Of a DNA stretch of 64,000 nt, positions 11,495 through 62,545 are shown piece after piece. The position numbers and the translations under genes were made by a program. Each line of letters starts with the position of its first letter. The stretch's first letter is position 1. This DNA comes from Amphiura filiformis (taxonomy: Eukaryota > Echinodermata > Ophiuroidea > Amphilepidida > Amphiuridae), in contig NC_092642.1 of the NCBI RefSeq assembly GCF_039555335.1, forward strand, positions 24,650,262 to 24,714,261, in the 5' to 3' direction. Below the pieces are notes generated by a model. That model saw nothing but the letters and a program-made list of their open reading frames with translations. It was not told the DNA's origin and ran no database searches.

Positions 11495-11577
11495 ATGTTT
11501 TCTGCCAGGGAACTCAGAGGAGAAAAATCAGGAAAAAAGGTTCATAATCCGATTTTTGAAGATCCGGAACCAGATAG
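11495..11577 (+). CDS. Exon 1: start codon and N-terminal cytosolic tail
   Basis: ATG at 11495 is preceded in frame by TGA at 11483-11485, so this is the first coding exon if the start is used. It encodes MFSARELRGEKSG and ends PIFEDPEPD with AG|GTATGT as donor (phase 2). The basic, then acidic short tail is typical of variable DEG/ENaC N-termini and has no motif of its own. The join to exon 2 gives an unbroken frame. Confidence 0.65.
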
Positions 11578-14500
11578 GTATGTTGTAAAAACCTATTAAA
11601 AAATGTTTAGAGAATCTAATTATGCTATCATATTAAAATATGTAGCCTTTTTCAATCGACTGCTGAAGAAGGCCTCTTTATCAAATTTCAATTTCACTCT
11701 ATCATGAGCTGTACGCTTCCTAACGCTACCATATCCTCTGCTCTGATGTCATCTATTAATCACGTTAATTGTTTATATTGCCCGCTAAAACACTAAAACA
11801 TTTTAAAACGTTTTAAAAAGTTATATTTTGGGTTTTGATTTAGATAAAAACGTTTCAATAACATTTAATGTCGGGTTAAAATGTATTCAAAACGTTATTG
11901 TAAACTATATTTTGCAAACATTTTTTGCCAAATGTTTTGTCAACACCTAAATGACATTATGTTAAAATATTTGCAGTAGGTTATCAAAAAAAATGTTTTT
12001 AACGTTATGAACGCTTTATGCCCTTTATATACCCTTTATATAACCCGACATCTAAATGTTTTCTGACAACCTTTTATAACCTTTTGTGATTGATGTCGAA
12101 AACGTTTTGTATTTGCTGGGTCTTTAACCGAAATATCAGGTTTTTTGGCAATGATAGTCCAGTTCTATAACTATATTCAGTCTGTTCCATAGTGGCCTCT
12201 AACCACCCAAAAAAAAAAAACAAAAAAACCAAGAAAATAAAAAAACACGTACCGCGTATGAAATAACGCAATCTCTCTATTACATGTTTTCTATCTGTAC
12301 CTTACACGCAGCACTCAAAAAGGGCCTCAATACGGAGATTCAACAAATACAAATGAGGAGAAGACGTGCTTAAGTATTATTGGGAACCAGGCCACAGAAA
12401 TATCATCCGCTCATGGATATCCAACAATATTCAAATCCAAAAGATGGTATGGCAAGTTGTTTTGGACTCTGGTATTGGTATTAGCTTTCTGTGCCTTTCT
12501 ACGTCAGGCCATTGTGCTCGTTGAGAGATACATTGATGCTCCAGTTGCTGTTGAGGTGAGTTTAAAACAACAAATTACCTTGATATATATAAATGATTAC
12601 AGTAACACCGGGCCTTTTCAATTTTTTCAGTTTTCAGTTTCTTACGTAATCATCTGTACGCATTTTGACCTTGTTAGAGGTGAGCTGAACTTTAAAAGTA
12701 TGCTAGGCCAAAATAGTCTTTGTTTGCCCAGACATGGGGTAGAAAGTAATGGTTCGGTAAGGCGATTAATTTTTTTAGATGTGTAGACGTGTTGTAGCAA
12801 GTGAGGTAAGCGAAAATATACGACATCCAGCCTTACATTTTGTACTTCAACCATACCATATAAAGTTTAATCTCTTTCTCTTTGGCAACAAAGGGTAACG
12901 GACTGGAAGCATGTAGTACAAATCCCAGACCATACCTGTCATGCATGGTTCTGTATATTAATGTTGAATAATTGTAAAATATTGTTGAGGAGTGCTAAAT
13001 GGGAAAGCTGTGATTGCCAGGAATATTAACTTTCAAGTGTCATTTGGCATTTTATAGGAAAAACACCATTTTCTTTATTATTATATCATTGGTTTTTGAT
13101 GATATTTTTAAATGTTTTGGTCGGTCGTGTCTAGGCAAACAAAGACTTTTTTGGCCCAATTCACCAGTAGAATACGGTCAGGTACGACCTCGTTCGTAAA
13201 TTACAAGTATAGTATATTTGACTAAATAATACTAAGGAATATTCTCTGTGAAAAGACTTTCATCATTGTTAACTGAAAGCACGTCTGCTACAATCAAAAA
13301 TTAAAATTTTCGACTTCGGTGCTAGGTTTCTAGCATTATTAGCCATTCAATGGGTGCGTCTTGTAAAGATTTCACGTAATTTGATTGGTTTTCTGGCGTA
13401 TAATATCTGACAATAGTTGATAGTGATATTAGTCAGGGCGCGCGCCGCCACGCAACGGCGGCACGCTTGTTGCTCCTCAATGATCGCGCGATAATGCGTT
13501 CGCGTAATACACGTGCGAGAATTAAGAACGCGATTCGGCGGCTTAGATGTTCGTGATGGTTTCGTTCATTTAAAACAACGGGGATGTCCTCACAAAAGTA
13601 ACTTTATTTTTTTCTGAAAAAGGGCAGTTTTTCTCGCAAAAATTACATTAAAACTGAATAAGAATGAGAATAAACGATAGGATTTTGTCTTTTGCGTATC
13701 CAATATCGTGTCATAATGGATGGGCTGGCCAATATTTTTATCGTAGTCTCAAAATATTGGCCAGCCCATCCATTATGACACGATATTGGATAGGCAAAAG
13801 ACAAAATCCTATCTTTTATTCTCTAATAATCTCTTGATAAACACAAACTGAAAACAAAACAATGCCCGGTCAAGTGAAATATTGAGCGTTGTTGAGGTAA
13901 AATTGATGACTATAGTCTTATCCATTATTTTTAATTAAAACCGACGCTTATGATCATGAACTAAAATTGTTGAACTATTTCTTTTTGAAGTTTACGTTAT
14001 GTCTAGAGTTTAGTGTAGTGTGGCACATAGAGCACTGTGTAGGGCATACGTCTAGGATCACTACCACTATTCTGCAAATATTTGTTCTAAACACCTTTGG
14101 GAAAGATGCCTAAAATTACATTGGAATTATGAAAAATATGAGATTTCATCGGGTACCTGGTACTGATATCTCAATTTTTATGAGATGTGGTGGTGGTGGG
14201 GGTGGGCGTTGAGGCTCTCAATCGCGTCAAACATCTCTAAGTTATATTTCCATTTCAGTTGAAGGTTGTTTCGAAGACATACTTGGATTTCCCCGCCGTG
14301 ACTGTTTGTAACACTAATAAAGTCAGACGATCTGCCATCAGTAGGTCTAAACATAGACAAGTTTTAACGGTGGATGATAACACACCTAATGCTTACAGAG
14401 GTAATAATCCCATGTCACATTAATCAAAGACACTGCATATTTATGCAGCGACTGAAAACCATAAAATATCATGTGAAAGATTAAGCCTGAAGTGCTATAT

Positions 14501-17500
14501 TATACAGTAAAATTTAGTTTTTATAATAAATCCTGGGATCCCCGCTTTTATTAACCAATTGCCCTATAGAGCTCCACAATTAAGCGGCTGAATGGTTTTC
14601 TTTCATTTTGCTTCATTATCTACAATCATGCATTGTAGTGTTAGTGTATAAATTACGTAACTCTTACTAGCTTACTAAGGCATTGGTCATACATGGGCAT
14701 CTGAATGCCACGAAGCTGCCTAGTGGTGTCAAATTAAAAAATACAATAAAAAACTCTAGTCATTCTACTCGCCACTCACTGCAAAAACAGTGTTTAGCAG
14801 CTGTGTGGTCAACAGGTTTGGACACGTATGTGGCAAGTCAAATCCAGCAATGATGTATTTATTGTGTCCGAAACGTTATTGAAATTTAGAATATGGATGT
14901 ACATTCAATGTTTTATTGGGTGACTTGTGAAATTGAACACCATCTGACCGTATAAATGTTCAGAAATTTGACACATTGATAGTGCTTATTGTGATTCTAC
15001 AACGTGCAAAAACATGTAGAAAGGAAAATGATGTATTTAGAAAATGTTTGAATATTTAGATGTTTAGAAATTGAAAATCACTGACCAATGTTCAGAAATT
15101 TGACACATGATGTTTATAATTATTATCATTATCTTTATTATTATCATTCGTTTCTTTTCCTTTCTCTGTATATCCTTATTCTTTCCTAGGCCTACACTTT
15201 ATCACTCCCTCACTCTTCTAAAATAAAATAAAATGTCAATTTGTGAAATAACTTTTATATAGGCCTATACCAGTACTTATTATATGTTACATGTACATAC
15301 GTAGCTGTTACCATTATACAATACTATAGACATGCGGACATGGCAGCCGTAATACATTCTGATGTGTAGTCTATCAGCAAGCGCATTCAATTGATTAAAT
15401 GAAGCACCTAAAGTCAATGGGTGATAACGAACTGTACATCGACGGCTTAAGTGTGCCTTTTGTGTTTTCGGCTACTCAATCACACCCTTGGGCTTTGTGA
15501 GAACAAAAAGTACCTTTCGTTCAAGTAGGCGCTTTAACGCGAATTTTGTTTGATCACTTATTGACAGTACCCAGCCTTGTAAAGCGTGAACACGCTGTAA
15601 GGTCAGTTACCAATTTAATGGCGGAACTCTTTTGTCATAAACAAAAGGTACCTTTCGATGAATAGCTTGTCGGAAACTCAAATATAGGCACAAAGGAACA
15701 ATTCGATATATAATATATTGCTCCTCCAGCATTTAATAGCTCCATGGTCAAATCAGTATAGGTGAAATAAAGGTCCTGTAGCCCCTTATAGGATTTTGAA
15801 AAAAGAATTGCAATGAGGATGCACTATATTAACCCTTTAAATGAAGAAAGAGTATAGTCAGTTAAATAAATAAAACATAATAATTGAATTAATTTAATTA
15901 ATAAATTCATTAATGTCATCCGAGGTCAAAGGTCATCAGGCAGAGTGCTCAGATTCTACTAAATTAAACGGATGCCAACCGCATATGACGGGACAGGGGT
16001 ATGGGAAGAGTACCGATTTTAGAAGAAGGGTAAAACCGGAGAGAAAAACCTGCGAGAACGAGCATAGATCGTATGGCAACGTGGATAATTGGATTTCAGG
16101 CGCAGTGGAGAGACGTGAATGAGAAAAGCATTACACTAAACCCGCCCTCCCCCATTAAACATTTTGTATTCACCGTTACAATCTTTAGCAAGTTTATGCT
16201 TTATATATCTTTTGGTAAATTAATATTACATGGATCATCTTTGAATTAGCGAACAAGGGATCAACACTTCAGCTCAAGAGGGCAGCATATCATTTTTAAC
16301 GCTGATGACCTCTGACCGTACTGCGATGTACCGTTTACATTACTTATCACGCTGGTGACCTTCAAGAATTGATGCGCTCTAGAGCAAAAGCGCTGATCCC
16401 TTGTTCGCTAATTCAAATATACGAAAAGACGAATACCCATTTGGCTGTCTGTCAAACTTATAACGATACGTGTAACAGTAAGTATATTTTCTCCCTTCTT
16501 CTCTATGCAAACATGACTTCTAGTTCCATGTTTACCAGCGGATTTCAAGTGTGTTGATGGAACGGAATGTGTGAAGCGTTATTTAGTCTGCGATGGAATA
16601 CGACATTGCGCAGATCAGAGTGATGAGAATGACTGCATATATGGTAAAAGCACGTCGGCTATTATCACTGTCTGGTTGTGTCGTTTTATTAAGGCTAAAA
16701 AATAATGATATGTCTCAAAGCCCATTGCAGTTTCAAAATTGAATGCGGAATGGGGTTTTAGAATCAATTAATTAATTATTTTTTTTTAATTAAGTTGGAA
16801 TTAAGATGTCATTTTCAAGTGTTCAAAAGTACACACCATTATTTGTGATTTACACATTTGAAGTACAAAAATTGATTGTTTTATACCTAAACAATGCGAA
16901 ATCAAATCATGTAAATTTGCTTCAAAATATGTCTCAGAATATTATGCTTTTATGGCTTTGAGACACAGCATTTTAGCCTAAGCAAAACACTATTTCGACG
17001 GGTGAGTGCATATTGCATGTGTCATTTTTAGCAAAATTGAGTTATTATTGTATATACACTGAAAACATAAATTGGTTAGTATGACTAACTTTACGTTAGT
17101 CCATATGGTGTCCATTTTGACTAACTTAATGTTAGTCAAGCAGGTATGACTAACATGTGTGACTAGCTTTGCCTAATTATGCAAGCAGGACTAGCATGCT
17201 TGACTAACGTCAACATTAGTCAAGCAGGTTTGACTAACCAGCTGACTAGTTTGGACGTTAGTCATGCATGCATAACTAACCTAGGCTAGTTGTATGACTA
17301 GTAAACGACTAACTTTAAGTTTGTCAGAATGGTGTCCATTTTGACTAACGTAACATTAGTCATGCACTTCTAAGCTAGTCATGCAGGCTTGACTAACATG
17401 ATCAAACCAGTCAAGCTGTTATGACTAGTTTGCTCGACTAACGAGCTGATTGAGGTGGAAATTGGTCTCTGGTACATATGATGAAGGTGGTGGTTTTGAG

Positions 17501-20500: not shown

Positions 20501-23500
20501 AAATTCTTGATAAGCGATCACCACCTGATGTTGACGTCATCTTTCTTGACTGGAGTAAGGCCTTTGACAAGGTCAGTCATTCTATTCTTTTAAGGAAGCT
20601 TCATCTGTATGGCATCTGTGGTCCGCTTTGGCACTGGATCGCCTCGTTTCTTTTAAATCGTTACCAGTGTGTTCAGTTCAGATGGGCATCCTCTGAGTGG
20701 GTCCCTGTTAAATCAGGGGTCCCACAAGGGTCTGTGCTGGGTCCTCTTTTGTTTAATCTTTTGTTTTAGATCTTCCAAATTTTGTTCAGTCTCCTCTTCC
20801 ACAATATGCAGATGACACGCTCCTTTATAGGCCTCTATACTCGGAAGATGACGCCAATATCATTCAAAATGATTTAAATGAAATTGTTAGCTGGTGCAAT
20901 ATTAATAAGATGGCTTTAAACCCAGACAAATGTAAGGTCATGAGGTTATCCAGGAGAAATGTTGCTGGTCGACAGGTCCCATCGTATGTCATTCTTAATA
21001 AACCCATTGATGTAGTCCAAAGTTATAAATACCTTGGTGTTTTAATTTCTTCTAATATGAAATGGGGTGATCATGTCAAGTATGTTACTTCAAGAGCTTC
21101 AAGACTCTTTGGTTTTATTAGGCGGTTGGTCCGTTGTAACGATCCAGATATTCTCGTCAGATTATTTTCCACATTATGTAGACCCATCTTGGAATACGGA
21201 ATACCAGGGTGGCTCCCTTACCAAATTGGTCATTTAAAATCACTTGAAAAAACTCAAAAACTTCTGGCTCGTGTTTGTGTTCCTGCTCCCCGGGGGGAGC
21301 TTAGTTACAATTTCAGATTAGAAATGCTTGGTTTATCTTCTATGCGTAACAGATATATTTACCTTGCTTTGTCCTTTGTTTCAAAATGTTTGTATGGGAG
21401 GTATGATATCAATCCCTTTAAGTTTATCTCAGTGAATCCCCGCCACAACGAGAATTTAAAATTTAGTCACACCTATGCTCGCACAGATGGTTTTAAATTC
21501 ACTGTTTTCAACAGATTTCATGCTTATTTTGACCAACTTCCTCAAGATCTCCGTAATCAACTTCTTTTCAGTTTAAATGGGTTTTTAACAAATTCTAAAG
21601 AGCACTTCAAAAATCTCAGCTGGAATTGATTTTTTATCGAGTGTTTCTTATGTAATATGCTTAGTTTATTTATTTACCCCACTCTAGTTCATGGGGAGGA
21701 ATCCTGTCTCCTTCGGTGTGATCTCTGTTTTGCTGTGTTGTTTTTGCAGAGTTTTTAGGTTTAGCCACTTTGGAAGTGACTTTTGTTACTCTTGGCTATC
21801 CTTGCCAGAGGCTCTGTGTCTTGTTCTCCTGTTTTTGCACACCGAGGGAGTCTTGGATTCCTCATCATGGACTGGAGTCTTGCCTTTTAATAACTCCTAT
21901 ATGAAAATAACTCATGTTAATTGCTGGTAATATTGTGCAATCATTGTATGTGTTTTACTGTATGTTTAATGTTTTTTATCTGGCAAATAAAATGAAATGA
22001 AATGAAATGAAATGAAATGAAATGAAATTTCACTGCTCATTCGCTCATTTCACCGTCCCTGAAATTTTGTTTGAAAATGTTGTTTGACATTTTTTTGGAT
22101 TTTTTGAACGATTAACCACGCCCACCTCATTAATATTCACATATGCTAATTAGCCACGCCTACCTCATTAATATTCATGAGCTTGTGTGACCTTGAAATG
22201 GTCCCTACAGACCCGTATACTACTTTCTATATTGTGCTATTCGTCAGTGTAAACCAACAATATTTTCTCCACATATTGTTGGTTTACACTAACAGACTTG
22301 TCCTCCTATAATTTCGGGACGAACAAATGAATTAAACCGAAAAAATGAACTTCATTCCAGCACCAATACCGTCCACTGTTCTTCATCTTCTTCCTCCTCC
22401 TTATCTTCTTTCATCTTCATATCTATCTTCATTATCATCACATATTTATTATCATTTGAATCCTATACCTAAGGTGAATGTGGGAAGGATCAGTTCAGAT
22501 GTAGTAGCGGTGGAGATATGGGAGTCTGCATTAGCAATGATTTAGTGGGTGATAACATTGCCCATTGCTACAAGGGAGAAGACGAGATCGATCGAGGTAA
22601 GATAAAGTATAATTTGAAATAAACAATCTATTTTAATGAACAATACTATTTATGTGTACTGATGAATAAGAATAGCATATAGCATTATTGATAGAATAGT
22701 AATTGACCAAATCAGATACCTACAGTCATTTTCTACCGTCAGGATTTAAAAAGTACATTAATAATTCTGATATATCCCTATTTTATATATCAAAACGTTT
22801 CTCTTTTATATAGTGTGCATGAAGAATGAATATAAATGTGCAATAGGCGTCTGCATTCCAAAAAGCAAAGTTTGCGATGGAAAGATAGATTGCACATTGG
22901 ACAGTAATAATACAAGTGACGAAGGACGTTCCTTATGTGGTAAGAAGCTTATACAAATCTCCAACCATTCTTGATTAAGGCTCTGTACTTGGTACGGGAT
23001 ATCATTCTTCGCCATAAATTGAATTACCATGTTTACGCGGACCCTTCTCAACATAGTGATAATTCTGCAATTGCTACCCTTGAAATTTGTATCAGTGAAA
23101 TCCGCAATTGGATGAAATCAAACTTCTTGAAGTTAAATGATGATACAGCATAATTTCTGTTGGGATTCTACCAAAACTGTCTAAAACCAACATTGCAAAT
23201 GTTTGCATCGGTGACTCTGCAATGCCCTGTCAACGCATGTAATTTGGGTGCAATTTATGACACTCACATGACCATGCAACCTCATATTTCTAAAGTCATT
23301 GCTTAGCGTAACATCAACCGGATCCGCAAGTACTTAAGTCACGACGCCACTGAACAAATTCATCCATCTCTTCTCGTTTGGAAAACAACAGCAATACACT
23401 TCTCTATGGATTACCAAGAAAAAAACAGTACCGTCTGTTCAAAACACTGCTCGAATTCTCACTTTCACAATAAAATCATTGCAATCCTAAAGGAACTGCA

Positions 23501-26500: not shown

Positions 26501-27465
26501 TCGAAACGTTACGTCCGGTAATAGTAATTACGTGTGGACATGCAGCACTATTGGGCTGTCGGATATAACTGTGAGTATATCACTCGCGCAAAATTTTAAG
26601 CAGAGTAATTTACTGCGTGATATCATCATGGCTGCAGCTGCATAAACGGAATAAACGGAATGACAAGGAAACATTGGCTATCCTCACGATTTGGAGAGAC
26701 ACGGAAAGTATTTTTGGGATAAAAAAAAGCTTTGGGAGGAGATTGTCACGCTATTGCATGACAAGGGGGAATTCCCCACACGGTCGGGGGAGCAGATACA
26801 TGCTAAGATAAAGTCACTGAAAACTCTCCATCGCACCCTCCATGATCGGGTGAAAAGTTCAGGCGCAGGAGCAATTGACCATCCTTATTGGGATGACCTA
26901 CACGAGTTTCTAGGGGGGGGGGTAGCAAATGTAAACCCTCCAGAGGGTTCAGTGGGGGGGGCAGTATGGCCCTGGATGTAGATGGAGATTAAATTTATTA
27001 AGCCATAAGCATGATAACAGAAAGGCATGCAATTGGATTTTATAAGATGATTAGGGGGTCCCAAATATACGGAAAGAAAAATAGGGGGTGTCATAAATTT
27101 TTTTTGATGACCAAAATGTAGGGAGTCCCAACACAACATGACTACAGATAGTGTGTTTATTTTATTCAAAAAGACTGATGCCTGTTTGGGGGGGGGGTGC
27201 AAACGGTGGGGTGGGCGTCATAAAATCTTTGCTGGTAAATTTGGGACCCCAAGAAATAAATAGCATGATGATGGGAGTCATTGTTATTTTTTTTTTTTTT
27301 TGTCAATTTTTCAAAGATGTCCACCATGTAGGGTCTACATGTATAAAATGCGTTATCAAGCTAAGTCTACTGTAAAATGGGACTACTTTGTCAAACTAAA
27401 ATAATAATAATAATTAATTAATTATTATTAATATTATATTATTATTATTATTATTATTATTATTA

Positions 27466-27498
<33 letters not shown>

Positions 27499-54400: not shown

Positions 54401-55061
54401 AGATGAGAGAGAGCATTGGAAGTGAAAGAGAAGGGGGAGGAGAGCTCGAGATGAAGATATCGAATGTAGGGGAAGAGGAGGGGAAAGGGGTAATTTAGGG
54501 AAGAGGTGGTTATATAGGGAGGAGTCCCTCTTAAAGAGGTATGGGTTGTGCTTCCGGGGATAATAAACTAATTCATAATCAAATCATCTCCATGCATCGT
54601 TTATGTTTCATACAAACAAACAATCCCACACCCAAATCCTTCAATATACGCGCATGTATATGATTTCTAGGCCTAGAACTCGTGAGTGTAATTTGTCACC
54701 TACCTTCGACAGAGAGCATCAACTGTCGTCCGCGTGATAGATTTCCGATATCAATCATGATAATAAGTTATGATAGCACAATAGGTTATTGTATACTTCT
54801 GGTTATATACCCTATACTGTGTCTTCCCAGCATAATAGTGTTATGATTGCAGACCAGATCAGCTCTACTTTTTAATCCCTTGATTTTTGGTTTCTGATAA
54901 CCCGTGTGTATTCATAGGTTTATGGGGTTTGCAAAATAAATAAATAAATAAATAAATAAATATATAATAATAATAATATATTTCGCTCCTATATTTTATA
55001 GTTGAGCACTTTATCTAGTGATGGTTTCACTATAATTTCTTACTATAAATAAATAAATGAA

Positions 55062-55101
<40 letters not shown>

Positions 55102-58100
55102 AAAATAAAGAAAAAAAAAGAAAAAAAAAAGATCCAACGCCTTTTTCAAACGCAATTTACAGCTTTAAAAGTTGCATTGGTAACTTTTTATCACAGAGAA
55201 TGTCCTTTGATATACTAAACAAATCCCTACCTGCCTACCATGTTACGCCAATCAATTGTTACGCCAATCAAACATTTTTTAGGCCTAAGGGACCGTTCAC
55301 AAACACTTGTAAGGGGGGGTCTGATGCAAAAAGGGGGGCCCTGAAATTTTTGACCCTCCTAAGGGGGGGGGGGGCCTGAAAAAAATGACCACAAATTTTC
55401 ATGGAAAATTTTAGTTTATTTGCTTTTCTATGGGGTTGACCCATAATTTTCATGTCAAAAAGGGGGGCCCTGAAATTTTTGAGGCCTGTAAAGGGGGGGG
55501 GGGCCGAAAAAGTTTCGCGATAATTTTTTTTGCATCAGGCCCCACCTTACAAGTGTTTGTGAACGGTCCCTAAGTTCTACAAGGCAACTCACCAAACATA
55601 GCAGGCAAAAACTTAAACACACTCGTACAATAACTGCACTGAAATTTAATCCTTGAACAAAACCTCTTAATCGCCTTTTTATCCAATTAATAAAAACATA
55701 TCACTACAAATGCCATTATATATCTATTGCTTACTACCTCAACCACTTTCACTATTATTTTCTCGGACAACAATCTCCATTCCCACTGGGACCTTTCCCA
55801 AAATATTAACCCTCGCCTTTTGAAGAAACGAACACATTTCTTGGGGAAATACCAAACCCCATCCACAATAGTCAAACACTTATTTCGGACATTTAGTCGT
55901 TTAGTAATTTTTTTCAGACATTTTCATAATCATGGATTTCAGTCAAGGTCAATTTAATTGAAAGCAGAAAATAATGAAATTGAAAATCTTTATTCAATGT
56001 CGTACATGTAAATCAACATGCTTTCCTTTTCAGCCGATAACGAACCACCTAGAGTAAAATGCCCTGGAGACATCGTCCAGTATGTTCCGGCAGGTGTCAC
56101 AGGAAAATTGATAAGATGGAAGGAACCAATAGTCAGTGACTACTCTTCCAGAAGTGGTGAAAAAGTAGTGCCTGTATCTCAAAGTCACACATCGGGACAA
56201 GTATTTTCGATTGGCGTCACAGTTGTACGATACACGTACGCCGATTGGGCTGGTAATACAGCTATGTGCGAATTTCACGTTCATCTCTTGGAAGGTAAGT
56301 ATTTAGAAACATATGGGTGACTATCGATTATCTAAATGTATGGCACATCTGTGATGTCAAATATATCAAGATTTCCCATCTAGAAGTATGATAATCGAGT
56401 TTCCCTCAAGAAAACAACTCTGCCACGGCTGTTTGATGTGATCATTTATTAGTTTTTCAAACAAAACATCATGTACACCCCAATTTTAGGCTTAACAGCT
56501 TAAAGCGGTATCATGCTAATGTTCACAGATGCTTTTGAGTCATTTTTAACTTTAATTTCCCCCTATTTTCAACATTAGTCACTTTCACAGCATTTTTTCG
56601 AGCTTTTCCTGATATAAAATGTTTCTATTTATGACAAGATTGCGTGGCGCTATTTAAATAAAGAAATTATGTCTTTCATGCTTTTAATACAAGTAATTCC
56701 TTTTATTTTTTGATGAAATATGTTTATAAAATTTCTTTGTTGATTATTTCACCTATTTCACCTGTGTAAATGGCAGTATTGATTACCTAACCCTGGGAAA
56801 TTAAAAATATGATTTAAAATAGTGAATAGCCATAAACCTATAGTTTGCATTTCGTTAATAATGAAGCCAAGTGAATTTATATACATCAAAAACCGTAAAA
56901 TCAAATTTGACGTTTGAGTAAAACTGTTACCCACGAGTCCAGCAAATGTATTGAGATAATAGATTAAATTAATGATTTGGACACTGAATTTAGTTTGACA
57001 AGCGGAATTGTAAATCGTACAAATGCGTTCACGTTTAAAAAAGAATACGACGGTATTGGCTGTTGATACCCACGAATTCTACGTAAAATGTCATTAATAA
57101 AGAAATCACGTTATTGATGGAGCATATCATGTCACGTCCAATGTGCTCTCTTTGAGCATATAGGCCTTTACTAGCAAGTCATACCAGGGGACAAGTTATG
57201 CTGGCTTAAATGAATTGGCGTTACCCACGAATTCAAAGATAAAGCACCATATATGTCATTGAATGTCCTTCAATCAAAATGAAATTATTACCGTTAGAAA
57301 GACGTTTGCATGATCTCTCATCATATGTAAAACGATTGAATTCCACCAAAGTTTGTGGACTCTAGAGGCCATTAAGTCAATTTGGCTAATAATTTTGTTA
57401 CTCGCGTATCAAAAATAAAATGATCGTTCTGAAAAATGTTTAGTGAATATGCCATAAATGACTATATCATGAAACGAAGTTTCGTTCTATAATTCTGAGG
57501 TCCAAGTGATTATTTTATGCAAATACATTTTACCCATAAAATTCCATAAAATCAAATTTGACGTTACCCACGTATCAACTGTTACCCACGAGTCCAGCAA
57601 ATATAATTGCCATTACTTAAATTAACATTTAATGACTTTGGACACTGAATTTAGTTTGACAAGCGCTTAAAATTGTAAATCGTACAAATACGTTCACCGC
57701 TTTAAAAAAGAATCTACGACGGTTTAAACTTTTGATACCCACGAATTCTACTTTAAAATGTCATTAATAAAGTAAATCACGTTATTGATGGAGCATATCA
57801 TGTCACGTCCAATGTGCTCTCTTTGAGCATATAGGCCTTTACTAGCAAGTCATACCAGGGGACAAGTTATGCTGGCTTAAATGAATTGGCGTTACCCACG
57901 AATTCAAAGATAAAGCACCATATATGTCATTGAATGTCCTTCAATCAAAATGAAATTATTACCGTTAGAAAGACGTTTGCATGATCTCTCATCATATGTA
58001 AAACGATTTAATTCCACCAAAGTTTGTGGACTCTAGAGGCCATTAAGTCAATTTGGCTAATAATTTTGTTACTCGCGTATCAAAAATAAAATGATCGTTC

Positions 58101-61100: not shown

Positions 61101-62545
61101 CGACTTCGCTTGATACAGGAGAGTGGTTTTGAATAGATCGACGAGCTTACGATCACGGCGTTTGGAAATCGCAATCTCTCTAATCACTCTATGTACCTCA
61201 CAAGGAAATAGGACACCTCTCTTTTGTATCTGTAATATCTCACTATATATATATATATCTGTGTATCTATAAGTGCCCTAACAATCAGTTATGTCGAGGT
61301 TTCCATTCAACGTATCGAATTCACCTGTGTGTATCAAAAACATATGTGGATTATCTAGGAATCACCCATATGTACCAAGTATACCATATATACTAAGCTG
61401 TTTTATAACATGTCTGATGAAGAAGATTATATAGTTCGCATCCGATCCAAAAGTAGGAACACTATTCGGACAGTGTCCATTTAACCTCACTTTGGTGTCA
61501 TTAGTTGTTCAACATAAAAAAAACCCTCCTGTTTGTACACAAATTTAAGCCAGAAATTGACTTTCGGTTCCAACACGTACAACGTAGGGGAGCGAGTTGG
61601 CGCAGCGGTTGTTCCCTTGCCTTGCACCACTGAGGTCCCGGTTTCAAGCACTGGCGCGGCCCAAGGACTCATACGTACTTGGTTTATCCCAATTCCATGC
61701 TCGCTCTCTCCTGTATCGCAAAAATAGGTAAGTAGTTGTTTGGTTATCAAAAACTTGCTTCACCCAATGGAATTTGGGGAGCTGCACAGATAATCGATAG
61801 ATGTTACAGTCTAAGTGCAGATAGGTTTGCACCGTTCGGCAGCAACTGACCTAGTTGATGCGATCTGATTGTGATGATTCACCATGGCAGCAAAATTACA
61901 GCGATCCTCTAAGATCTGGAGATAAGGCGCTATATAAATCCAAAATTTAATTTTTAAATTTTAACATTCGATTTTCACCAATGTATAAGGAAAAAAAATA
62001 TTTCAGCATGATATGGTTTTCTCGAGACAATAACAGCCGCGAGTTATACACGCTCGATCAATGGAGGTAATCTGTAGCGCAAGATGCGACGCGAAGTGAC
62101 TGAGCCCTGCAGATACACCGACTAATACATATTGATAGATTTTCAACTAATATTTTCATTCAAATTTTCACACCCCACTCCTTCTATCGAGCCTTAATGT
62201 TTGTTCTTACCCTAGCATGCCTGATGGTTATCATTTTTTCGCTAAAATGACTACAACCAACCCAAATCATTTTGTGGCAAACGAGCTTCGTAGCGTGCAA
62301 GATCGAAACACCATAAAGGTTTGCACCCTCTCCCTTACGTACATGTAGGTCCATGTTTCGAAAAGGTGATTTGACATTTGAATTCTGACAAAATACTGCA
62401 CTGTCATCTTTGTTTACAGAACCAGATCAGGAAGTTGAAATGTTTGATTGTGAGGCTGGTATTCAGGTTCCTATGTGGAAAACGTGTAATACTGTTCCTG
62501 ATTGTAACAATGGAAAAGATGAACTCGTGTGTGGCTCTTTTGACG
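11495..62545 (+). CDS. DEG/ENaC channel with LDLa and HYR ectodomain modules (5' part, 14 exons)
   Basis: Predicted multi-exon gene for a sodium-channel-family membrane protein. Exons: 11495-11577, 12312-12555, 14259-14400, 16539-16643, 22474-22596, 22814-22939, 26028-26162, 32717-32872, 35259-35417, 44545-44694, 49393-49650, 50162-50437, 56034-56294, 62420-62545. They sum to 2344 nt and stay in one frame with GT-AG borders. Residues 1-76 are cytosolic with the HG gating motif at 62-63; TM1 is about 77-97; FPAVTVCN is 120-127. Then come LDLa 157-191, 192-232, 233-274, 275-319 and 320-371; HYR 372-474, 475-560, 561-652 and 653-739; LDLa 740-781. From exon 4 on every exon is phase 1-1, the mark of shuffled modules. 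The remaining channel ectodomain and TM2 should lie beyond 64000. Family membership is from seen motifs; continuity of channel and module exons is inferred from phase and order and needs transcript support. Confidence 0.8.
11778..12120. repeat. AACGTTTT-rich element in intron 1
   Basis: The interval opens CCCGCTAAAACA and closes TGTATTTGCTGGG, imperfect inverted ends. It is dense in AAAACGTTTT and AACATTTTAAAA words. A related block ending TTTGCTGGGCC lies at 49015-49240. It is probably a MITE family whose ends read CCCAGCAAA. Confidence 0.55.
12312..12555 (+). CDS. Exon 2: HG motif and TM1 of DEG/ENaC channel
   Basis: Acceptor CACGCAG and donor GAG|GTGAG frame 244 nt (phase 2 in, phase 0 out). 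The product contains SSAHGYPTIFKSKRWYGKLF followed by WTLVLVLAFCAFLRQAIVLV. The His-Gly pair (residues 62-63) is the conserved gating motif just before TM1, and the W-x-x-KLFW entry and a ~21-residue hydrophobic run are the usual first transmembrane helix. The exon ends ERYIDAPVAVE, the start of the extracellular wrist. This is the clearest proof that the gene is a DEG/ENaC subunit. Confidence 0.88.
12706..13160. repeat. Inverted repeat pair in intron 2
   Basis: GGCCAAAATAGTCTTTGTTT near 12706 is mirrored by AAACAAAGACTTTTTTGGCC near 13138, each extended by the flanking CTAGG/CCAGAC words. This may be the ends of a ~450 bp MITE. The interior shows no gene. Confidence 0.45.
13676..13812. repeat. 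Long near-perfect hairpin
   Basis: Two arms of about 62 bases (13676-13737 and 13751-13812) are inverted copies with one or two differences, separated by a loop of about 13 bases. The stem includes GATAGGATTTTGTCTTTTGC and CATAATGGATGGGCTGGCC. It is in intron 2 and could be a recent foldback MITE or a source of double-stranded RNA when transcribed. Confidence 0.85.
14259..14400 (+). CDS. Exon 3: conserved FPAVTVCN segment of DEG/ENaC ectodomain
   Basis: Acceptor ATTTCAG and donor AGAG|GTAATA frame 142 nt (phase 0 in, 1 out). The product reads LKVVSKTYLDFPAVTVCNTN and then KVRRSAI. The L-x-FPAVT-x-CN-x-N signature follows TM1 in nearly all DEG/ENaC channels, its Cys forming a palm-domain disulfide. 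After the signature the exon has a short basic stretch and ends VDDNTPNAYR, where the family would normally pass into the finger domain. Instead the next in-phase exons encode LDLa modules. Confidence 0.88.
14401..16538. other. Intron 3
   Basis: AT-rich intron with no exon recognised apart from flanking ones. It contains the TIR element at 16240-16417 and TTATTATCATT-rich low complexity around 15110-15160. Confidence 0.5.
16240..16417. mobile_element. Short MITE with 24 bp perfect terminal inverted repeats
   Basis: The left end TTTGAATTAGCGAACAAGGG followed by ATCA (16240-16263) is matched exactly, inverted, at 16394-16417. The 178 bp element has no coding capacity. No certain target duplication was seen. 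Confidence 0.8.
16539..16643 (+). CDS. Exon 4: LDLa module 1
   Basis: A phase 1-1 exon of 105 nt with acceptor TTACCAG and donor TATG|GTAAAA. The product FKCVDGTECVKRYLVCDGIR then HCADQSDENDC carries the CDG...C.D.SDE..C calcium-binding half of an LDL receptor class A repeat. Asp-Gly, Asp, Ser-Asp-Glu are all present, so calcium binding is likely. Five cysteines are seen; the first canonical Cys is missing because the exon begins at ADFKC. LDLa modules bind protein ligands outside the cell. Confidence 0.88.
17070..17455. repeat. GACTAAC / GTTAGTC interspersed word array
   Basis: Over about 390 bases the heptamer GACTAAC or its complement GTTAGTC, and close variants GACTAGC and CTAGTCA, occur at a very high density, joined by TGCATG and CAAGCAGG words. 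Spacing is irregular, so it is not a simple tandem repeat. No coding frame. It lies in intron 4. Confidence 0.75.
19033..19464 (+). CDS. Intronless ORF, acidic protein with C2H2-finger-like start
   Basis: From ATG 19033 an open frame of 143 codons ends at TAA 19462-19464; the frame stays open upstream to 18841 without another ATG. The start RRHVKTMHGEDEERSET resembles the distal half (H-x-x-x-H) of a C2H2 zinc finger. It is followed by a Ser/Glu/Asp-rich stretch, a segment VTYREWLTRARVATREMRAQ, then HQDIVIDLEEKTDKGMD and a strongly acidic tail FQLDEEDDEMESDD. I associate this layout, tentatively, with multicopy C2H2-linked proteins in marine invertebrate genomes. The ORF is much more GC-rich than the intron around it, suggesting insertion. 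Function is not known. Confidence 0.5.
   Translation: MRRHVKTMHGEDEERSETAASEPEKSGPDDSERGSAASGEDSDVELEDNVTYREWLTRARVATREMRAQKYTIFFDSYGTFLAHNIHLKYDETHQDIVIDLEEKTDKGMDVGKAVKITLAKHRSQFVGLFQLDEEDDEMESDD
19550..19643. repeat. CTCATTT-type degenerate tandem repeat
   Basis: GCTCATTTCAATGCTCATTT and variants are repeated in tandem. The array is the target in which the LINE at 19644-22033 was inserted; one more unit resumes after it at 22034. Confidence 0.7.
19644..22033 (+). mobile_element. 5'-truncated CR1-like non-LTR retrotransposon
   Basis: Remnant of ORF2 of a LINE. It keeps the EN-RT linker (KKPWVTDEILKLARRKQRLY, 19700), RT motifs FLDWSKAFDKVSHSILL (about 20541), SGVPQGSVLGPLLFNLL (about 20716), YADDTLLY (20805) and the C-terminal region to a stop at 21627-21629. 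The endonuclease is absent. Frameshifts near 20015 and 20765 and a TAG at 20269-20271 break it, so it is dead. The 3' end is AAATAAAATG followed by (AAATG)n. An 18 bp word TGCTCATTCGCTCATTTC flanks both ends (19626-19643, 22034-22051), a probable target duplication, though the target is itself repetitive. The clade (CR1/Jockey group) is a judgement from motifs. Confidence 0.85.
20910..21629 (+). pseudogene. RT C-terminal fragment of the CR1-like LINE
   Basis: Longest remaining open frame of the element at 19644-22033: MALNPDKCKVMRLSRRN, YKYLGVLISSNMKWGDHV, then RPILEYGIPGWLPY and the thumb/C-terminal region. Family hallmarks are the LNPDKCKVM and YLGV motifs after the YADD box. It is separated from the upstream RT frame by a shift and cannot be translated as a full enzyme. 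Confidence 0.8.
22246..22290. repeat. Short perfect hairpin
   Basis: AGTGTAAACCAACAATA and its exact inverse TATTGTTGGTTTACACT enclose an 11-base loop. The stem of 17 bp lies in intron 4 shortly before exon 5. It may be the remnant of a MITE end; there is no terminator-like T run. Confidence 0.75.
22474..22596 (+). CDS. Exon 5: degenerate LDLa module 2
   Basis: A phase 1-1 exon (123 nt) with acceptor ACCTAAG and donor CGAG|GTAAGA. The product GECGKDQFRCSSGGDMGVC then HCYKGEDEID matches the LDLa layout C-x4-F-x-C...C...C...GEDE, but only four cysteines remain. The CDG turn is lost and replaced by LVGDN. It probably folds as a diverged LDLa. Acceptor strength is modest, without a long pyrimidine tract right next to it. 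Confidence 0.78.
22814..22939 (+). CDS. Exon 6: LDLa module 3 (complete)
   Basis: A phase 1-1 exon (126 nt) with acceptor TATATAG and donor TGTG|GTAAGA. All six LDLa cysteines are present: VCMKNEYKCAIGVCIPKS, KVCDGKIDC and SDEGRSLC. CDG, DC and SDE calcium-cage residues are in place, with an insertion NSNNT-like before SDE. It lies only 217 bp after exon 5, the shortest intron seen. Confidence 0.87.
22965..23560 (+). mobile_element. L2/CR1-like LINE reverse-transcriptase fragment
   Basis: In intron 6, right after exon 6. Frames with shifts show HVYADPSQHS (degraded YADD box), LEICISEIRNWMKSNFLKLN, CNLGAIYD, HISKVIA, RKYLSHDATEQ, and ILKELHWFPV (the LKELHWLPV motif common in L2-type C-termini). 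Several frameshifts and stops make it inactive. The following 23560-23830 may be a separate LINE tail and was not resolved. Confidence 0.78.
23831..26027. other. Intron 6 remainder, no gene recognised
   Basis: AT-rich sequence with many stops. The phrase TAAAGCCATATTATAACATT near 24913 also occurs near 18821, marking an interspersed repeat end. No other feature could be supported. Confidence 0.45.
26028..26162 (+). CDS. Exon 7: LDLa module 4
   Basis: A phase 1-1 exon (135 nt), acceptor AATAAAG, donor GGAG|GTATCT. The product WKCGHTIVYIPRLFLCDGYK then DCPGGEDEDKDTC has the CDG...C.GGEDE...C half of LDLa. Four cysteines are seen; the first and third canonical ones are missing (IVYIPRLFLCDG lacks the Cys before the CDG turn). 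The lost pair would be C1-C3, which are disulfide partners in this fold, so the loss is coherent. The acceptor lies behind a T-rich run. Confidence 0.82.
26670..26990 (+). pseudogene. Myb/SANT-like DNA-binding protein remnant
   Basis: Frame-shifted coding remnant in the left arm of the foldback element. It has the tryptophan/aromatic spacing of a Myb/SANT-like trihelix (LAILTIWRD..., FWDKKKLWEEIV, YWDDLHEFLG). In Harbinger elements this partner protein brings the transposase to the DNA. A one-base shift near 26700 and the missing C-terminus make it non-functional. An inverted partial copy is at 27518-27830 on the minus strand. Confidence 0.65.
27395..27525. repeat. (ATT)n/(TAA)n microsatellite at hairpin centre
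   Basis: Runs of TAATAA and ATTATT lie exactly between the arms of the foldback element; they likely arose from or initiated the inverted duplication. Confidence 0.85.
28092..29255. mobile_element. Adjacent half-copy of the foldback element, interrupted by a mariner
   Basis: Sequence from 28092 repeats the subterminal words of the left neighbour (GGCTTTAAATTGTCGGATTT, TTACGTCGGATATA) and then ends at 29215-29250 with AAGTCCGACAGTGTGAACA. The mariner-type element at 28144-29147 lies inside it. A further CATGTGTGAACACAGCTTA end occurs at 29335-29355, suggesting a third decayed piece. Confidence 0.6.
28144..29147 (-). mobile_element. Tc1/mariner (IS630-like) element, 1004 bp, TA flanked
   Basis: Starts CAGGGTGTC and ends GACACCCTG, flanked on both sides by TA, the target duplication of this superfamily. 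Subterminal AAAGAGGCCCCTCATTGCGC is mirrored at the right end. On the minus strand around 28706-28940 a frame reads VEWPTRLPDLTPLDFYFVT, the transposase catalytic block (normally W-P-x-R-SPDLTPLDFFLW) that contains the last acidic residue. Only this C-terminal part is recognisable, so it is non-autonomous. Confidence 0.82.
29361..31027. other. Intron 7, unassigned; one unexplained ORF
   Basis: At 30118-30474 a 118-codon + strand frame (MRDSFSHLSFNVYTFANDSQ...) stays open and contains HSIPSAVDKLVDSTYHHGDF; I do not recognise it and it may belong to an old transposon or retrocopy. Around 30655-30800, words such as GTTTGAAGTGATCATTTATTA recur near 56430-56470, indicating an interspersed repeat. 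Nothing else is supported. Confidence 0.4.
31030..32675 (+). mobile_element. LINE (APE-type ORF2 fragment) with FEMRCLR C-terminal region
   Basis: RT-coding remnant. KKLKNNKACGWDKISAEVLK (31220) and ITPVYKKGDKLNPANYRAI (31367) are RT fingers; a shift near 31608 leads to FKAAFDTIWRDVIW (31624) and GVRQGYLLSPCLL (31790). The next expected ~60 residues are deleted, and the catalytic box is changed to IRYKDDT (31850) in place of YADD. The C-terminal region has LDVFEMRCLRTMLGASLLDK (32249) and RRLKWAGHILWT (32380). The frameshift, deletion and lost active-site Ala make it inactive. The clade is uncertain (RTE-like or related). The endonuclease part is missing. Confidence 0.82.
32717..32872 (+). 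CDS. Exon 8: LDLa module 5 (complete)
   Basis: A phase 1-1 exon (156 nt) with acceptor TTTTTTACCTCACTAG and donor GCAG|GTAAGA. SDTCKEDDFSCETSS, RIVECFNQSFICDGDINC and YDMRDESNLYC supply all six cysteines with CDG and D..DE positions. An insertion SSLDENGKR enlarges the loop between the second and third Cys. It immediately follows the 3' end of the LINE at 31030-32675 by about 40 bases, so the element's insertion has come right up to the acceptor's pyrimidine tract. Confidence 0.87.
33115..33490 (+). mobile_element. Partial mariner copy
   Basis: Begins ACAGGGTGTCCAACTAAAAA and GAGGCCCCTCATTGCGCCCT, the same end as the element at 28144-29147, then jumps to the transposase C-terminal block EWAARSPDLTPLDFFICGKI on the + strand (about 33350). 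The other terminal repeat is missing. It is an internally deleted and truncated relative. Confidence 0.75.
33640..34420 (+). mobile_element. Decayed LTR retrotransposon 5' end (LTR edge, primer site, gag start)
   Basis: TTGGGGGCTCATCCGGGAA at 34170-34190 closely matches the primer-binding site complementary to tRNA-Pro. It is preceded by a probable LTR whose left edge (about 33640) is not fixed. Downstream, ATG 34250 opens a gag-like N-terminus with EEFLETIDWEKFDEFKKPDL then LLAFAKHYEL, the helix-rich start seen in many invertebrate gypsy-like gag ORFs. The frame loses similarity after about 57 codons. No pol or right LTR was found, so it is a fragment. Confidence 0.55.
34868..35018. repeat. 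Local direct duplication
   Basis: GAACCATATTTTATAATTTG followed by TCCTCAAGATTACAAAAAATGACTTCG occurs twice, about 103 bases apart, in intron 8. A short tandem duplication of non-coding sequence. Confidence 0.85.
35259..35417 (+). CDS. Exon 9: HYR module 1, first half
   Basis: A phase 1-1 exon (159 nt) with acceptor ATAATCAG and donor AGAG|GTAATT. The product VDVISPVIKNREFVDFPVTV then ARANWEEIIATDNFGD follows the hyalin-repeat pattern: D-x-x-x-P at the start, W-x-E/P in the middle, D-x-x-G near the end. It lacks the cysteines of typical HYR modules. HYR is an immunoglobulin-like extracellular fold used in adhesion proteins. Exon 10 supplies the second half. Confidence 0.75.
35487..36720. mobile_element. 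Two adjacent palindromic MITEs
   Basis: Copies at about 35487-36060 and 36110-36720 each begin GGGACxTxAGAGCACATCAG and end with its inverse (GTGCTCTCAGGTCCCAC), and each folds back around CATATCTTCAATATGAAAGG / AAAGGTCAAAATTTT arms. Shared words are TGATATCAAATAATTTTGAT and CAGCTACATACACTT. No coding frame. The second copy is more diverged. They stand head-to-tail in intron 9. Confidence 0.8.
36800..37610 (-). mobile_element. LINE A, 3' part (outer element, minus strand)
   Basis: Reading on the minus strand, the RT continues from the other side of the hAT insertion: FLFIVLIDYLMTMAIEG (about 37550-37600), LDFADDIALLESSIPRAQAQ (about 37430-37490, the YADD box as FADD), LLYGCESWVISTDMESKF (about 37190-37240), RSRQLRFLGHILRMQ (about 37040) and a terminal basic region GKRRPGRQRTSF, stop near 36820. 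The sequence has frameshifts. The C-terminal GHILRM...GRQRT layout is typical of LINE ORF2s with a cysteine- and basic-rich tail. The 3' end is GACATGAATGAATG. Confidence 0.83.
37611..38943. mobile_element. Non-autonomous hAT element, 1333 bp, 8 bp TSD
   Basis: The left end CAGAGGCGGATTTAAG and right end CTTAAATCCGCCACTG are 16 bp inverted repeats with one mismatch. Both sides carry the 8 bp duplication GCTAGAAC (37603-37610 and 38944-38951). Short inverted ends starting CAG and an 8 bp target duplication define hAT. The interior has no transposase; it holds GGGGCCC-rich repeat phrases related to 47760-48900. Removing it restores the outer LINE reading GVLQGDVLA|PFLFIVL, which independently proves the borders. 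Confidence 0.9.
38944..40392 (-). mobile_element. LINE A, middle part (EN end, linker, RT)
   Basis: On the minus strand from 40392 down: VLHNQDFPNPKVVSEHG, QLDHILVNSKWVN (end of the APE endonuclease, 40300), a long basic linker SWVTDKTLKLRSERDAAKK (39960), then PTLEETRKAIQAIKTNKAAG (39570), EQWITNVIVPLPKK (39380), NNYRGITLMSVAAKVYNR (39340) and FIDFKKAFDSINRKMMF (39130), ending GVLQGDVLA at the hAT border. A run of stops and shifts (for instance near 39360 and 39600-39710) shows it is inactive. Confidence 0.85.
40393..42866 (-). mobile_element. LINE B, CR1-like, inserted in LINE A
   Basis: Minus strand. The 5' end is truncated inside the endonuclease: CISGDFNRMNINAI (42800), TFPTRCQATLDLILTN (42720). 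Then comes a linker, and an RT frame 42086-40803 with SGPDGIPPKIIKEFAYE, VVLTDFSKAFDLVNHN, CAGVPQGTKLGPIIFQ, KYVDDLTF (YVDD catalytic box, about 41320) and LNPDKCQAI. The C-terminal region shifts frame at about 40860 and ends at about 40588. The 3' tail is AATAAAATC plus (ATATC)n at 40395-40420. Because its RT frame of 427 codons is nearly open, this is the youngest of the LINEs in the nest. The CR1-group placement rests on the motifs and the pentanucleotide tail, similar to 19644-22033. Confidence 0.87.
40803..42086 (-). pseudogene. Reverse transcriptase domain of LINE B
   Basis: An open frame of 427 codons carrying RT blocks 1-7 in order (SGPDGIP, RPISL, DFSKAFD, GVPQG, YVDD, KFLGI). The catalytic aspartates are kept, with Ala to Val in the YxDD box. 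It is open through the RT but cut off from the endonuclease by stops around 42000-42100 and from its C-terminus by a shift near 40860. It could not make a complete ORF2 protein. Confidence 0.82.
42867..43870 (-). mobile_element. LINE A, 5' part (APE endonuclease N-terminal half)
   Basis: Minus strand from about 43800: VVSTYNVRTLHQ (start of the APE-type endonuclease), VDIVGVQEHRLITSSPTDEL with the catalytic Glu (43690), TDQRQGGVGLLMS, an unresolved insertion at about 43125-43460, then TVTIIYAPTESATSGEKDSF (43100) and IHLVIGDFNARIGQD (43000), NDNGERLVNVCQEF at the border with LINE B. The frame resumes at 40392 with SSVLHNQDF, so LINE B sits within the endonuclease region of LINE A. A stop after LHQ and shifts make it dead. 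Confidence 0.82.
43871..44544. other. Intron 9 end, no gene recognised
   Basis: Contains (GAT)n at 43977-43999 and AT-rich sequence. The pyrimidine stretch before 44545 is short (TTCTATTATATTCAAG). Confidence 0.5.
44545..44694 (+). CDS. Exon 10: HYR module 1, second half
   Basis: A phase 1-1 exon (150 nt) with acceptor ATTCAAG and donor GCAG|GTAAGT. The product NSELIKSNLTNGDFFPEGFY then RVFESVTDEAGNYYEDWF and RLYVRA fits the C-terminal half of an HYR module: S-x-x-x-G-x-x-FP-x-G-x-x-x-V, T-D-x-x-GN and a closing V-strand. The Cys before the last strand is replaced (YYEDWF). It pairs with exon 9 across a 9.1 kb intron that carries the nested LINEs. The other three HYR modules are single exons. 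Confidence 0.8.
44925..45500 (-). repeat. Interspersed repeat, inverted copy of 7676-8175
   Basis: Complementary words appear in reverse order: GCGAAAGCTAACACTT, AGGTCAACAGATAACAC, ATTGACCA-like ATTCTCTTTAAATTGC, TACTATTTTCGCCTG and AGCGCTTACAA. About 500 bp. Same unclassified family as the intergenic copy. Confidence 0.7.
45630..46030. repeat. Degenerate tandem repeat, unit about 110 bp
   Basis: Units share GCCCAATTGGGCAAAAA, GAGAGTCCAATT(A/C)ACAAGC, TTTAATTTAATGTA, TTTGCACTCGCGTAG and ACTTAAAATAAAGAAATTGT in this order. At least three units are seen here; related ones return at 47250-47670. No coding potential. GCCCAATTGGGC is itself palindromic. Confidence 0.8.
46031..47249. other. Intron 10 segment, no gene recognised
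   Basis: AT-rich, separates the two blocks of the ~110 bp repeat. TATGGGTGTAGTACGCCCTT at 47235 resembles the end of the MITE at 2744-3099 (GGGTGTAGTACCCCCTT), so another member of that family may lie just upstream. Confidence 0.45.
47250..47670. repeat. Second block of the ~110 bp repeat
   Basis: Same ordered words as 45630-46030 (ATTCACAAGCTTTA, GGTTGCACTCTCGTAG, ACTTAAAATAAAGAAATTGT, CGCCCAATT), more diverged. Confidence 0.75.
47740..48900. repeat. GGGGCCC-rich repeat block with GC-rich insert
   Basis: Phrases such as GCCGGCCCTTTATTTTAAC, GGGGCCCTTGGGCCCATAAT and TGACCTTTGGGGCCAA recur several times; the same phrases occur inside the hAT at 38420-38640. Between about 47960 and 48325 lies a GC-rich segment of different composition that ends AGTGTGACCGGGCCTTA, the kind of end seen on short DNA transposons. 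Open frames here on both strands are compositional and not gene-like. Confidence 0.6.
49015..49240. repeat. AACGTTTT-rich element, second copy
   Basis: Rich in AAAACGTTTTAAAACATTTT and ending GTGTTTGCTGGGCC, as does the intron 1 block at 11778-12120 (GTATTTGCTGGG). Lies 150 bases before exon 11. Confidence 0.55.
49393..49650 (+). CDS. Exon 11: HYR module 2
   Basis: A phase 1-1 exon (258 nt) with acceptor TTTTTCTTTCAG and donor GTAG|GTATGT. The product PEIITINGCPDDITKEIGTN, VLWIPPTAV, FFPGVTTIDYEF then CSFNVTVLV matches the whole HYR layout: CP-x-D-I near the start, W-x-PP, FPG-x-T-x-(I/V)-x-Y and C-x-F-x-V-x-V at the end. The usual D-x-x-GN turn is replaced by RSDT. Two cysteines are present and probably pair. 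Confidence 0.87.
49988..50027. repeat. 40 bp near-perfect palindrome
   Basis: CTTATCATATTAATGCGGAC joined to GTCCGCATTAATGTGATAAG; one mismatched pair. It lies in intron 11, centred on GACGTC. It may be a very short MITE remnant or a cruciform-forming site. Confidence 0.85.
50162..50437 (+). CDS. Exon 12: HYR module 3
   Basis: A phase 1-1 exon (276 nt) with acceptor GTCTTTCAG and donor GTTC|GTAAGT. The product DTEPPVIFGCNISIDF..., FFPGRTTVNYVFRDQSGNTA then ECNFTVTV has the D-x-x-PP-x-I start, FPG-x-TTV-x-Y, D-x-SGN and C-x-F-x-V-x-V of a canonical hyalin repeat. The middle is divergent, with an acidic/aromatic stretch FYDFDGAAFYFW in place of the W-x-P segment. Two cysteines are kept. Confidence 0.9.
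50438..50901. other. Intron 12 start
   Basis: AGGTCAAAGGTC-type words repeat at about 50560-50700 (GAGATCAAAGGTCATC, GAGGTCAAAGGTCGTA), a low-copy degenerate repeat. No gene. Confidence 0.5.
50902..51360. mobile_element. 459 bp MITE with 9 bp target duplication
   Basis: Starts CCGGGGGCACTCAACTTT and ends AAAGTTGAGTGCCCCCGGG, so terminal inverted repeats of 18 bp are perfect. CATATTAAC occurs on both sides (50893-50901 and 51361-51369). The interior is made of diverged GGGGGTCATTGGGTA units (about 51000-51290). A target duplication of 8-9 bp fits hAT or MULE-type transposition; the superfamily is not settled. Confidence 0.87.
51370..54300. other. Intron 12 interior, no gene recognised
   Basis: AT-rich. 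Contains a G tract at 52794-52805 and GTTTTG repeats at 53830-53855. AAGAGGGCGCAACACTAAAT (53130) and an inverse-like TGCTGCGCCCCCTTAAAAGG (53600) suggest the two ends of an old 480 bp inverted-repeat element. No exon-like frame was seen. Confidence 0.45.
54301..54540. repeat. Purine-rich tract
   Basis: An almost continuous G/A strand (AGAAGAACGAGGGGAGAAG, GGGAGAGAGAGAAAC, GGGGAAGAGGAGGGGAAAG) with a short GT run. Such tracts can form triplexes; the open frame across it is a result of composition. Confidence 0.75.
54930..55135. repeat. (AAAT)n microsatellites
   Basis: Two AAAT/TAAA runs (54938-54965 and 55046-55105) separated by about 80 bases; the second ends in A-rich AAAGAAAAAAAAAG. Confidence 0.9.
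55289..55570. mobile_element. MITE with TAA target duplication
   Basis: Starts GGGACCGTTCACAAACACTT and ends AAGTGTTTGTGAACGGTCCC with TAA directly outside both ends (55286-55288, 55571-55573). Inverted ends extend to TGATGCAAAAA / TTTTTTTGCATCA. The interior has four similar AAAATTTTxAxx blocks with G tracts. A three-base TAA duplication suggests a PIF/Harbinger-type element. Confidence 0.85.
56034..56294 (+). CDS. Exon 13: HYR module 4
   Basis: A phase 1-1 exon (261 nt) with acceptor CTTTCCTTTTCAG and donor GAAG|GTAAGT. The product NEPPRVKCPGDIVQYVPAGV, IRWKEPIVSD, FSIGVTVVRYTYADWAGNTA then MCEFHVHL is the most canonical hyalin repeat in the gene: D-x-EPP-x-x-x-CPGDI, W-x-EP, G-x-T-x-V-x-Y, D-x-AGN and C-x-F-x-V. 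Such modules mediate cell adhesion in sea-urchin hyalin and occur in complement- and sushi-containing proteins. Confidence 0.92.
56890..58412. repeat. Tandem repeat, ~650-670 bp unit, about 2.3 copies
   Basis: CAAATTTGACGTT occurs at 56902, 57553 and 58224, giving periods of 651 and 671 bases. The second copy and the partial third are almost identical, while the first has small deletions. Each unit contains AATGTGCTCTCTTTGAGCAT, CAAAGTTTGTGGACTC and several GTTACCCACGA words. No coding frame. Confidence 0.9.
58413..59580. repeat. Continuation of GTTACCCACGAAT-bearing DNA
   Basis: Outside the tandem units the word (G)TTACCCACGAAT(C/T)C still recurs at about 58577, 58593, 58893, 58911, 59219 and, inverted, at 59566. 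The sequence between them is unrelated. AT-rich, no gene. Confidence 0.75.
59879..60183. repeat. 152 bp tandem duplication
   Basis: The unit TTTTAGAACAGGCTTAACAT...TGAGCCGTAAATTCCCTAAA occurs twice in tandem (from 59879 and from 60031) with one or two differences, so it is recent. The inverse word GGAATTTACGGCTCATTCG appears at 60674. Confidence 0.92.
60184..61586. other. Intron 13 segment, no gene recognised
   Basis: No exon or complete element could be supported. A short TATATATA run is present at about 61244-61258. Confidence 0.45.
61587..61960 (+). mobile_element. tRNA-derived SINE
   Basis: The head GGGGAGCGAGTTGGCGCAGC followed by GGTTGTTCCCTTGC resembles a tRNA 5' half with a pol III A box (TTGGCGCAGCGG), and GGTTTCAAGCA at about 61640 is a B box. 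The body ends in AAGGCGCTATATAAATCCAA (about 61924), the type of 3' end shared with CR1/L2-group LINEs, which would supply the reverse transcriptase. It lies in intron 13, on the gene's strand. Confidence 0.85.
62420..62545 (+). CDS. Exon 14: LDLa module 6 (after the HYR modules)
   Basis: A phase 1-1 exon (126 nt) with acceptor TTGTTTACAG and donor GACG|GTACAT. The product VEMFDCEAGIQVPMWKTCN then TVPDCNNGKDELVC fits the LDLa pattern F-x-C...C...DC-x-x-G-x-DE-x-x-C with four cysteines; the C1 and C3 pair is missing as in exon 7. An LDLa after four HYR modules shows that the two module types are interleaved rather than in two separate blocks. The next exon must start in phase 1, beyond the window. 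Confidence 0.8.

Follow-up and report, generated by a model that had tools for sequence, protein, structure and literature searches.

A candidate DEG/ENaC channel gene of Amphiura filiformis with LDLa and HYR modules in its predicted ectodomain

Lineage-specific additions to the ectodomain, located in or near the finger, are a known feature of the DEG/ENaC family, as in the GRIP domain of ENaC and the extracellular insert of the nematode degenerins. To our knowledge, the described FMRFamide-gated channels pass directly into the finger, and we know of no ASIC that carries a modular insert. It is not yet settled whether pulling by the extracellular matrix opens DEG/ENaC channels, and the tether model rests on separate matrix proteins and glycans (PMC10148893; PMC7958617).

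We analyzed a 64,000-nt stretch of the genome of the brittle star A. filiformis (the window), in which a plus-strand gene, here the LDLa/HYR gene, agrees with FMRFamide-gated sodium channels (FaNaC1, 8on7; 7yvb) in its N-terminal HG motif, its TM1 and its palm strand 1. The N-terminal segment is also held in common with ASIC1 and ASIC5, the best match to ASIC1 having E=1.1e-4. In contrast to the FMRFamide-gated channels, however, LDLa and HYR modules come after palm strand 1 in this gene. The addition also differs from the ENaC GRIP domain and the degenerin inserts, which are shorter and channel-specific, whereas here it consists of mobile LDLa and HYR modules and extends over at least 630 residues. 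Among the titles and opening abstract lines of the literature matches listed, none described DEG/ENaC, LDLa and HYR together.

Gene model and the channel N-terminus

Splicing 14 plus-strand exons at 11495-62545 in silico yielded 2359 nt encoding 786 amino acids, with no stop and no frame break. The original prediction had placed the HG motif, TM1 and FPAVTVCN ahead of five LDLa, four HYR and another LDLa module, on one strand and in one frame; all of these were found in that order and could be joined. Its statement that the 14 exons connect without a frame break also held; the length it gave, 2344 nt, corresponds to an E4 start at 16539 instead of 16524.

The first in-frame ATG, at 11495, lies shortly after an in-frame stop and opens E1 (11495..11577), which encodes the cytosolic N-terminus (residues 1-27). 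E2 (12312..12555) contains the HG motif at residues 62-63 and TM1 at approximately residues 77-100, and E3 (14259..14400) encodes FPAVTVCN within palm strand 1 and then enters the finger region, with matches in both Pfam and the PDB. In the spliced protein, Pfam ASC aligned to residues 59-141 (E=2.9e-17), and the features by which we recognized a DEG/ENaC N-terminus, namely the HG motif, TM1 and an FPAVTxCN first palm strand, were all present; within the window, the ASC coverage of the gene comprises profile positions 5-88 of 455 only. When the N-terminal 156 residues were compared with the PDB, the FMRFamide-gated channels were the best matches (E=9.6e-9 and 2e-8), followed by weaker matches to Pickpocket 26 (9.7e-5) and to ASICs (1.1e-4 and weaker). 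Against ASIC1a, 26 of the 82 aligned positions were identical.

C126, the cysteine of FPAVTVCN, is retained. Its equivalent in ASIC1 is bonded to a cysteine far later in the ectodomain, and the retention of C126 thus predicts that the remainder of the channel exists. We further infer from the retained HG and FPAVT that more than a mere membrane anchor is encoded, as neither would be necessary for one.

Every internal exon border is an AG/GT border. The exon ends are in phase 2 for E1, phase 0 for E2 and phase 1 for each exon from E3 onward to E14, which gives all eleven module exons a symmetric 1-1 structure. The donors lie at the 83rd-100th percentile of the GT sites of the window, those of E4 and E14 being modest (83rd), and the pyrimidine tracts of the E2-E14 acceptors lie at the 83rd-100th percentile except for that of E4 at 16524, which is average (53rd). 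In the case of E4, two acceptors are compatible in phase: the one at 16524 (tract 0.50) gives a full six-cysteine LDLa1, and the one at 16539 (tract 0.69) loses C1. A first exon scan with a stricter threshold did not select E4 or E14. Of 958 acceptors in the window, 46 are followed by an open phase-1-1 stretch. Such stretches are thus frequent enough that the agreement in phase between E3 and E4, taken alone, would arise by chance about one time in three; the identity of the modules rests on their domains.

The LDLa and HYR modules

A domain search of the spliced protein, which the original prediction had named as a check, placed ASC, Ldl_recept_a and HYR all above their cut-offs (24.1 bits for Ldl_recept_a and 21.7 bits for HYR). 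Ldl_recept_a matched six stretches (E=2.5e-31) and HYR matched four (E=1.5e-40), stretches being counted in both cases at E up to 1.

Three of the six LDLa modules have six cysteines: LDLa1 in E4 (16524..16643; raw-frame Pfam E=6.5e-9), LDLa3 in E6 (22814..22939; raw frame 26.0 bits, E=1.1e-5) and LDLa5 in E8 (32717..32872), which was matched within the string and scored 14.0 bits, below the cut-off, in the raw frame. The other three have four cysteines and each scored above the cut-off alone, namely LDLa2 in E5 (22474..22596; 25.9 bits), which lacks C4 and C6, and LDLa4 in E7 (26028..26162; 26.8 bits) and LDLa6 in E14 (62420..62545; 25.6 bits), which both lack C1 and C3. The disulfides of LDLa modules join cysteines I-III, II-V and IV-VI. 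Each degenerate module is thus short of exactly one bonded pair (3/3; chance 0.008 under random loss), and the cysteine count is even in every module. By eye, the DE pair of the acidic calcium site is kept in 6/6 LDLa modules. Since the cysteine losses come in bonded pairs, the modules look real, folded and selected.

Hyalin is an HYR protein, and modules of this type occupy E9 to E13. HYR2 in E11 (49393..49650) scored 25.4 bits alone, and HYR3 in E12 (50162..50437; E=2.1e-10, 41.2 bits) and HYR4 in E13 (56034..56294; E=2.4e-18, 66.7 bits) were matched in the raw frame; each of the three has two cysteines. HYR1 has none and appears to be divided between two exons. Its second half is encoded by E10 (44545..44694), to which a partial, sub-threshold HYR score in the raw-frame Pfam scan had led, and HYR1 alone reached 23.0 bits against the cut-off of 21.7 through this half only (profile positions 40-72). 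Its proposed first half is E9 (35259..35417), which was chosen by eye from the 21 candidates that a relaxed exon scan gave and has no Pfam match.

Among solved chains, the LDLa string was closest to LRP2 (8jut, E=5.2e-54, with E4-E13 as the query), and the HYR part was the best stretch in none of the 43 solved-chain matches of this query. The string differs from those of LRP2 and VLDLR in that Pfam found no EGF or beta-propeller modules in the spliced protein and in that it follows a channel TM1.

The introns contain several other features. Reverse transcriptase pieces of retroelements were matched by RVT_1 at 19514-21626 on the plus strand (E=7.9e-22), at 31032-32179 on the plus strand (E=1.9e-12) and at approximately 41100-41828 on the minus strand (E=9.3e-45). 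The E4-E5 intron holds an open frame of 207 codons (18841-19464, plus strand) with an acidic C-terminal half and no Pfam match in frame, and at 34870-35008 on the plus strand there are two copies of a short stretch reading EPYFIICPQDYKK, in different frames and separated by about 100 nt. Towards the 3′ part of the window, 56927-59573 holds an exact 300-nt duplication with a spacing of 671 (57103 and 57774), as well as 14 of the 15 window matches to TTACCCACGAATYC (at most 2 mismatches; 0.76 expected), a pattern that suggests a mobile or satellite element. A 152-nt tandem duplication at 59878-60181 is 99% identical and apparently recent. Rfam at gathering scores and a tRNA scan returned nothing. 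Several Pfam candidates fell below their cut-offs and were discounted as fortuitous or overlapping matches: ZW10_C (about 58.1-58.4 kb), Defensin_beta_2, PRIMA1, LDLRAD1_C, GKRP_SIS_N, CPSase_L_D2, HYR_4C, Myb/SANT near 26.7 kb, CTD1 and PAP_fibrillin.

Topology and the search for the rest of the channel

TM1 is the only hydrophobic segment in the 786 residues, and every N-glycosylation sequon (9/9) lies beyond it, which indicates that the modules are extracellular, as expected for a DEG/ENaC ectodomain. E3 runs 29 residues beyond FPAVTVCN, the ASC match ends at residue 141, and in the ASIC1a alignment residues 138-139 fall on the KN of the ASIC1 SKN motif; this motif sits in a short loop and the first finger helix (PMC10507113). 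The string accordingly comes after palm strand 1, where the finger begins. We consider it fairly probable that the gene encodes a DEG/ENaC subunit with a string of, at minimum, five LDLa, four HYR and one further LDLa module inserted where palm strand 1 gives way to the finger.

Fusion of a DEG/ENaC N-terminus to LDLa/HYR modules in one gene is well supported, because frame, phase, strand, order and membrane topology all fit and no rival start was found between E3 and E4. In a simple search for start exons, defined by an ATG, a signal-peptide-like stretch and a phase-1 donor, this interval gave 0 candidates. This makes it less likely that two genes are present, one a DEG/ENaC gene of which E1-E3 are seen here and whose other exons are lost, undetected or elsewhere, and the other an independent LDLa/HYR gene for a secreted or membrane protein, with a first exon of its own. 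Across the six inter-module intervals, one start candidate each was found in the E4-E5, E7-E8 and E8-E9 introns, which would leave room for such a second gene, but this is about the background rate of the scan (5 candidates per 64 kb on each strand). The insensitivity of raw-frame scans to single channel exons likewise allows for two genes; however, tblastn with ASIC1a found no finger-to-TM2 exon after E3 on either strand, and the fit of frame, phase, strand and topology is to one gene. We therefore regard two separate genes as quite unlikely.

The fused gene should continue past 62545, since E14 ends in a phase-1 donor. Within the window, Pfam found no finger, thumb, knuckle or TM2 exons after 14400 in three frames over the whole plus strand (E threshold 1 in one raw-frame scan, 10 in the remainder), and no further ASC exon in the minus-strand stretches 10001-19902 and 36001-45902. 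With ASIC1a, tblastn on both strands gave two matches below E=1, at 14256-14348 in the E3 region (E=7.8e-4) and at 1091-1171 (E=0.002). These scans are weak for channel exons: raw-frame Pfam missed E2, E3 and a TM2 exon further upstream, and ASIC1a matched E2 at E=81. Within their sensitivity, there was no TM2 or other ASC exon in the 49.6 kb after E3, and the only TM2 within the window belongs to the upstream neighbor. The TM2 of the LDLa/HYR gene, if it exists, must lie beyond the window.

This neighbor is another DEG/ENaC gene, whose last two exons lie on the same strand, 10 kb upstream of the LDLa/HYR gene. Its last palm strand exon (246..391), matched by Pfam ASC, includes EIFYEGLNY, and its TM2 exon (1094..1244), which gave the second of the tblastn matches, includes GLYIGFSVITVCEF and is apparently frame-disrupted. 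Jointly, the two exons cover ASC profile positions 394-452 (E=1.6e-12), and the C-terminus they encode is closest to ASIC5 (E=1.2e-7). The two exons are out of frame when joined at their GT and AG sites, and the tail of TM2 apparently continues in another frame (1158-1244), and for these reasons the neighbor is probably a decayed DEG/ENaC copy or affected by assembly errors. The two loci show that predicted DEG/ENaC genes or pieces of them adjoin one another here.

The apparently decayed 3′ end of the neighbor indicates that duplicated, broken channel parts exist at this locus, and together with the lack of an ASC exon in the 49.6 kb downstream of E3 in the weak scans it would also fit a different kind of protein. 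An LDLa/HYR gene could have captured exons 1-3 of a duplicated channel gene as its cytosolic tail and membrane anchor, giving a single-pass type II receptor of the adhesion or scavenger type that lacks TM2. We think this unlikely. HG, FPAVTVCN and its cysteine have been kept although an anchor does not need them, and the phase-1 donor of E14 leaves the gene open at the window boundary.

Frame disruption in the neighboring channel 3′ end, and the retroelement pieces in several introns, also raise the possibility that the LDLa/HYR gene is not truly expressed, being a pseudogene or else an artefactual chimera produced by duplication or by the assembly. Such an origin appears highly improbable, however, given that 2359 nt are open across 14 exons with AG and GT borders and that the cysteine losses of the LDLa modules are paired.

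A possible covalent tether in a DEG/ENaC channel

For the subunit with modules at the transition from palm strand 1 to the finger, we propose that symmetric phase-1 exon shuffling placed the module string at this position. The N-terminus with the gating motif HG would then be intracellular and TM1 would span the membrane, with the modules outside, forming an arm of at least approximately 630 residues at the channel's edge. E3 would be spliced to E4, and exons further downstream would supply the rest of the finger, thumb, palm and TM2. The arm may bind a matrix, glycan or secreted ligand, and the ligand-bound arm could pull on the joint between finger and palm and thereby position or gate the channel. 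With regard to the original prediction of a channel with inserted modules, the fusion of the DEG/ENaC N-terminus to LDLa/HYR is well supported, and the finger, thumb and TM2 that would follow it, like the gating or localizing role, keep the standing of predictions. That the gene encodes a complete DEG/ENaC subunit within a local cluster, with a covalent LDLa/HYR binding arm in its finger that serves as its own tether, is a proposal to which we would give an even chance.

If this proposal is correct, matrix-type modules in the finger of a channel would make the tether question testable in a single polypeptide, and exon shuffling would be shown to have equipped an ion channel with what may be a sensor arm.
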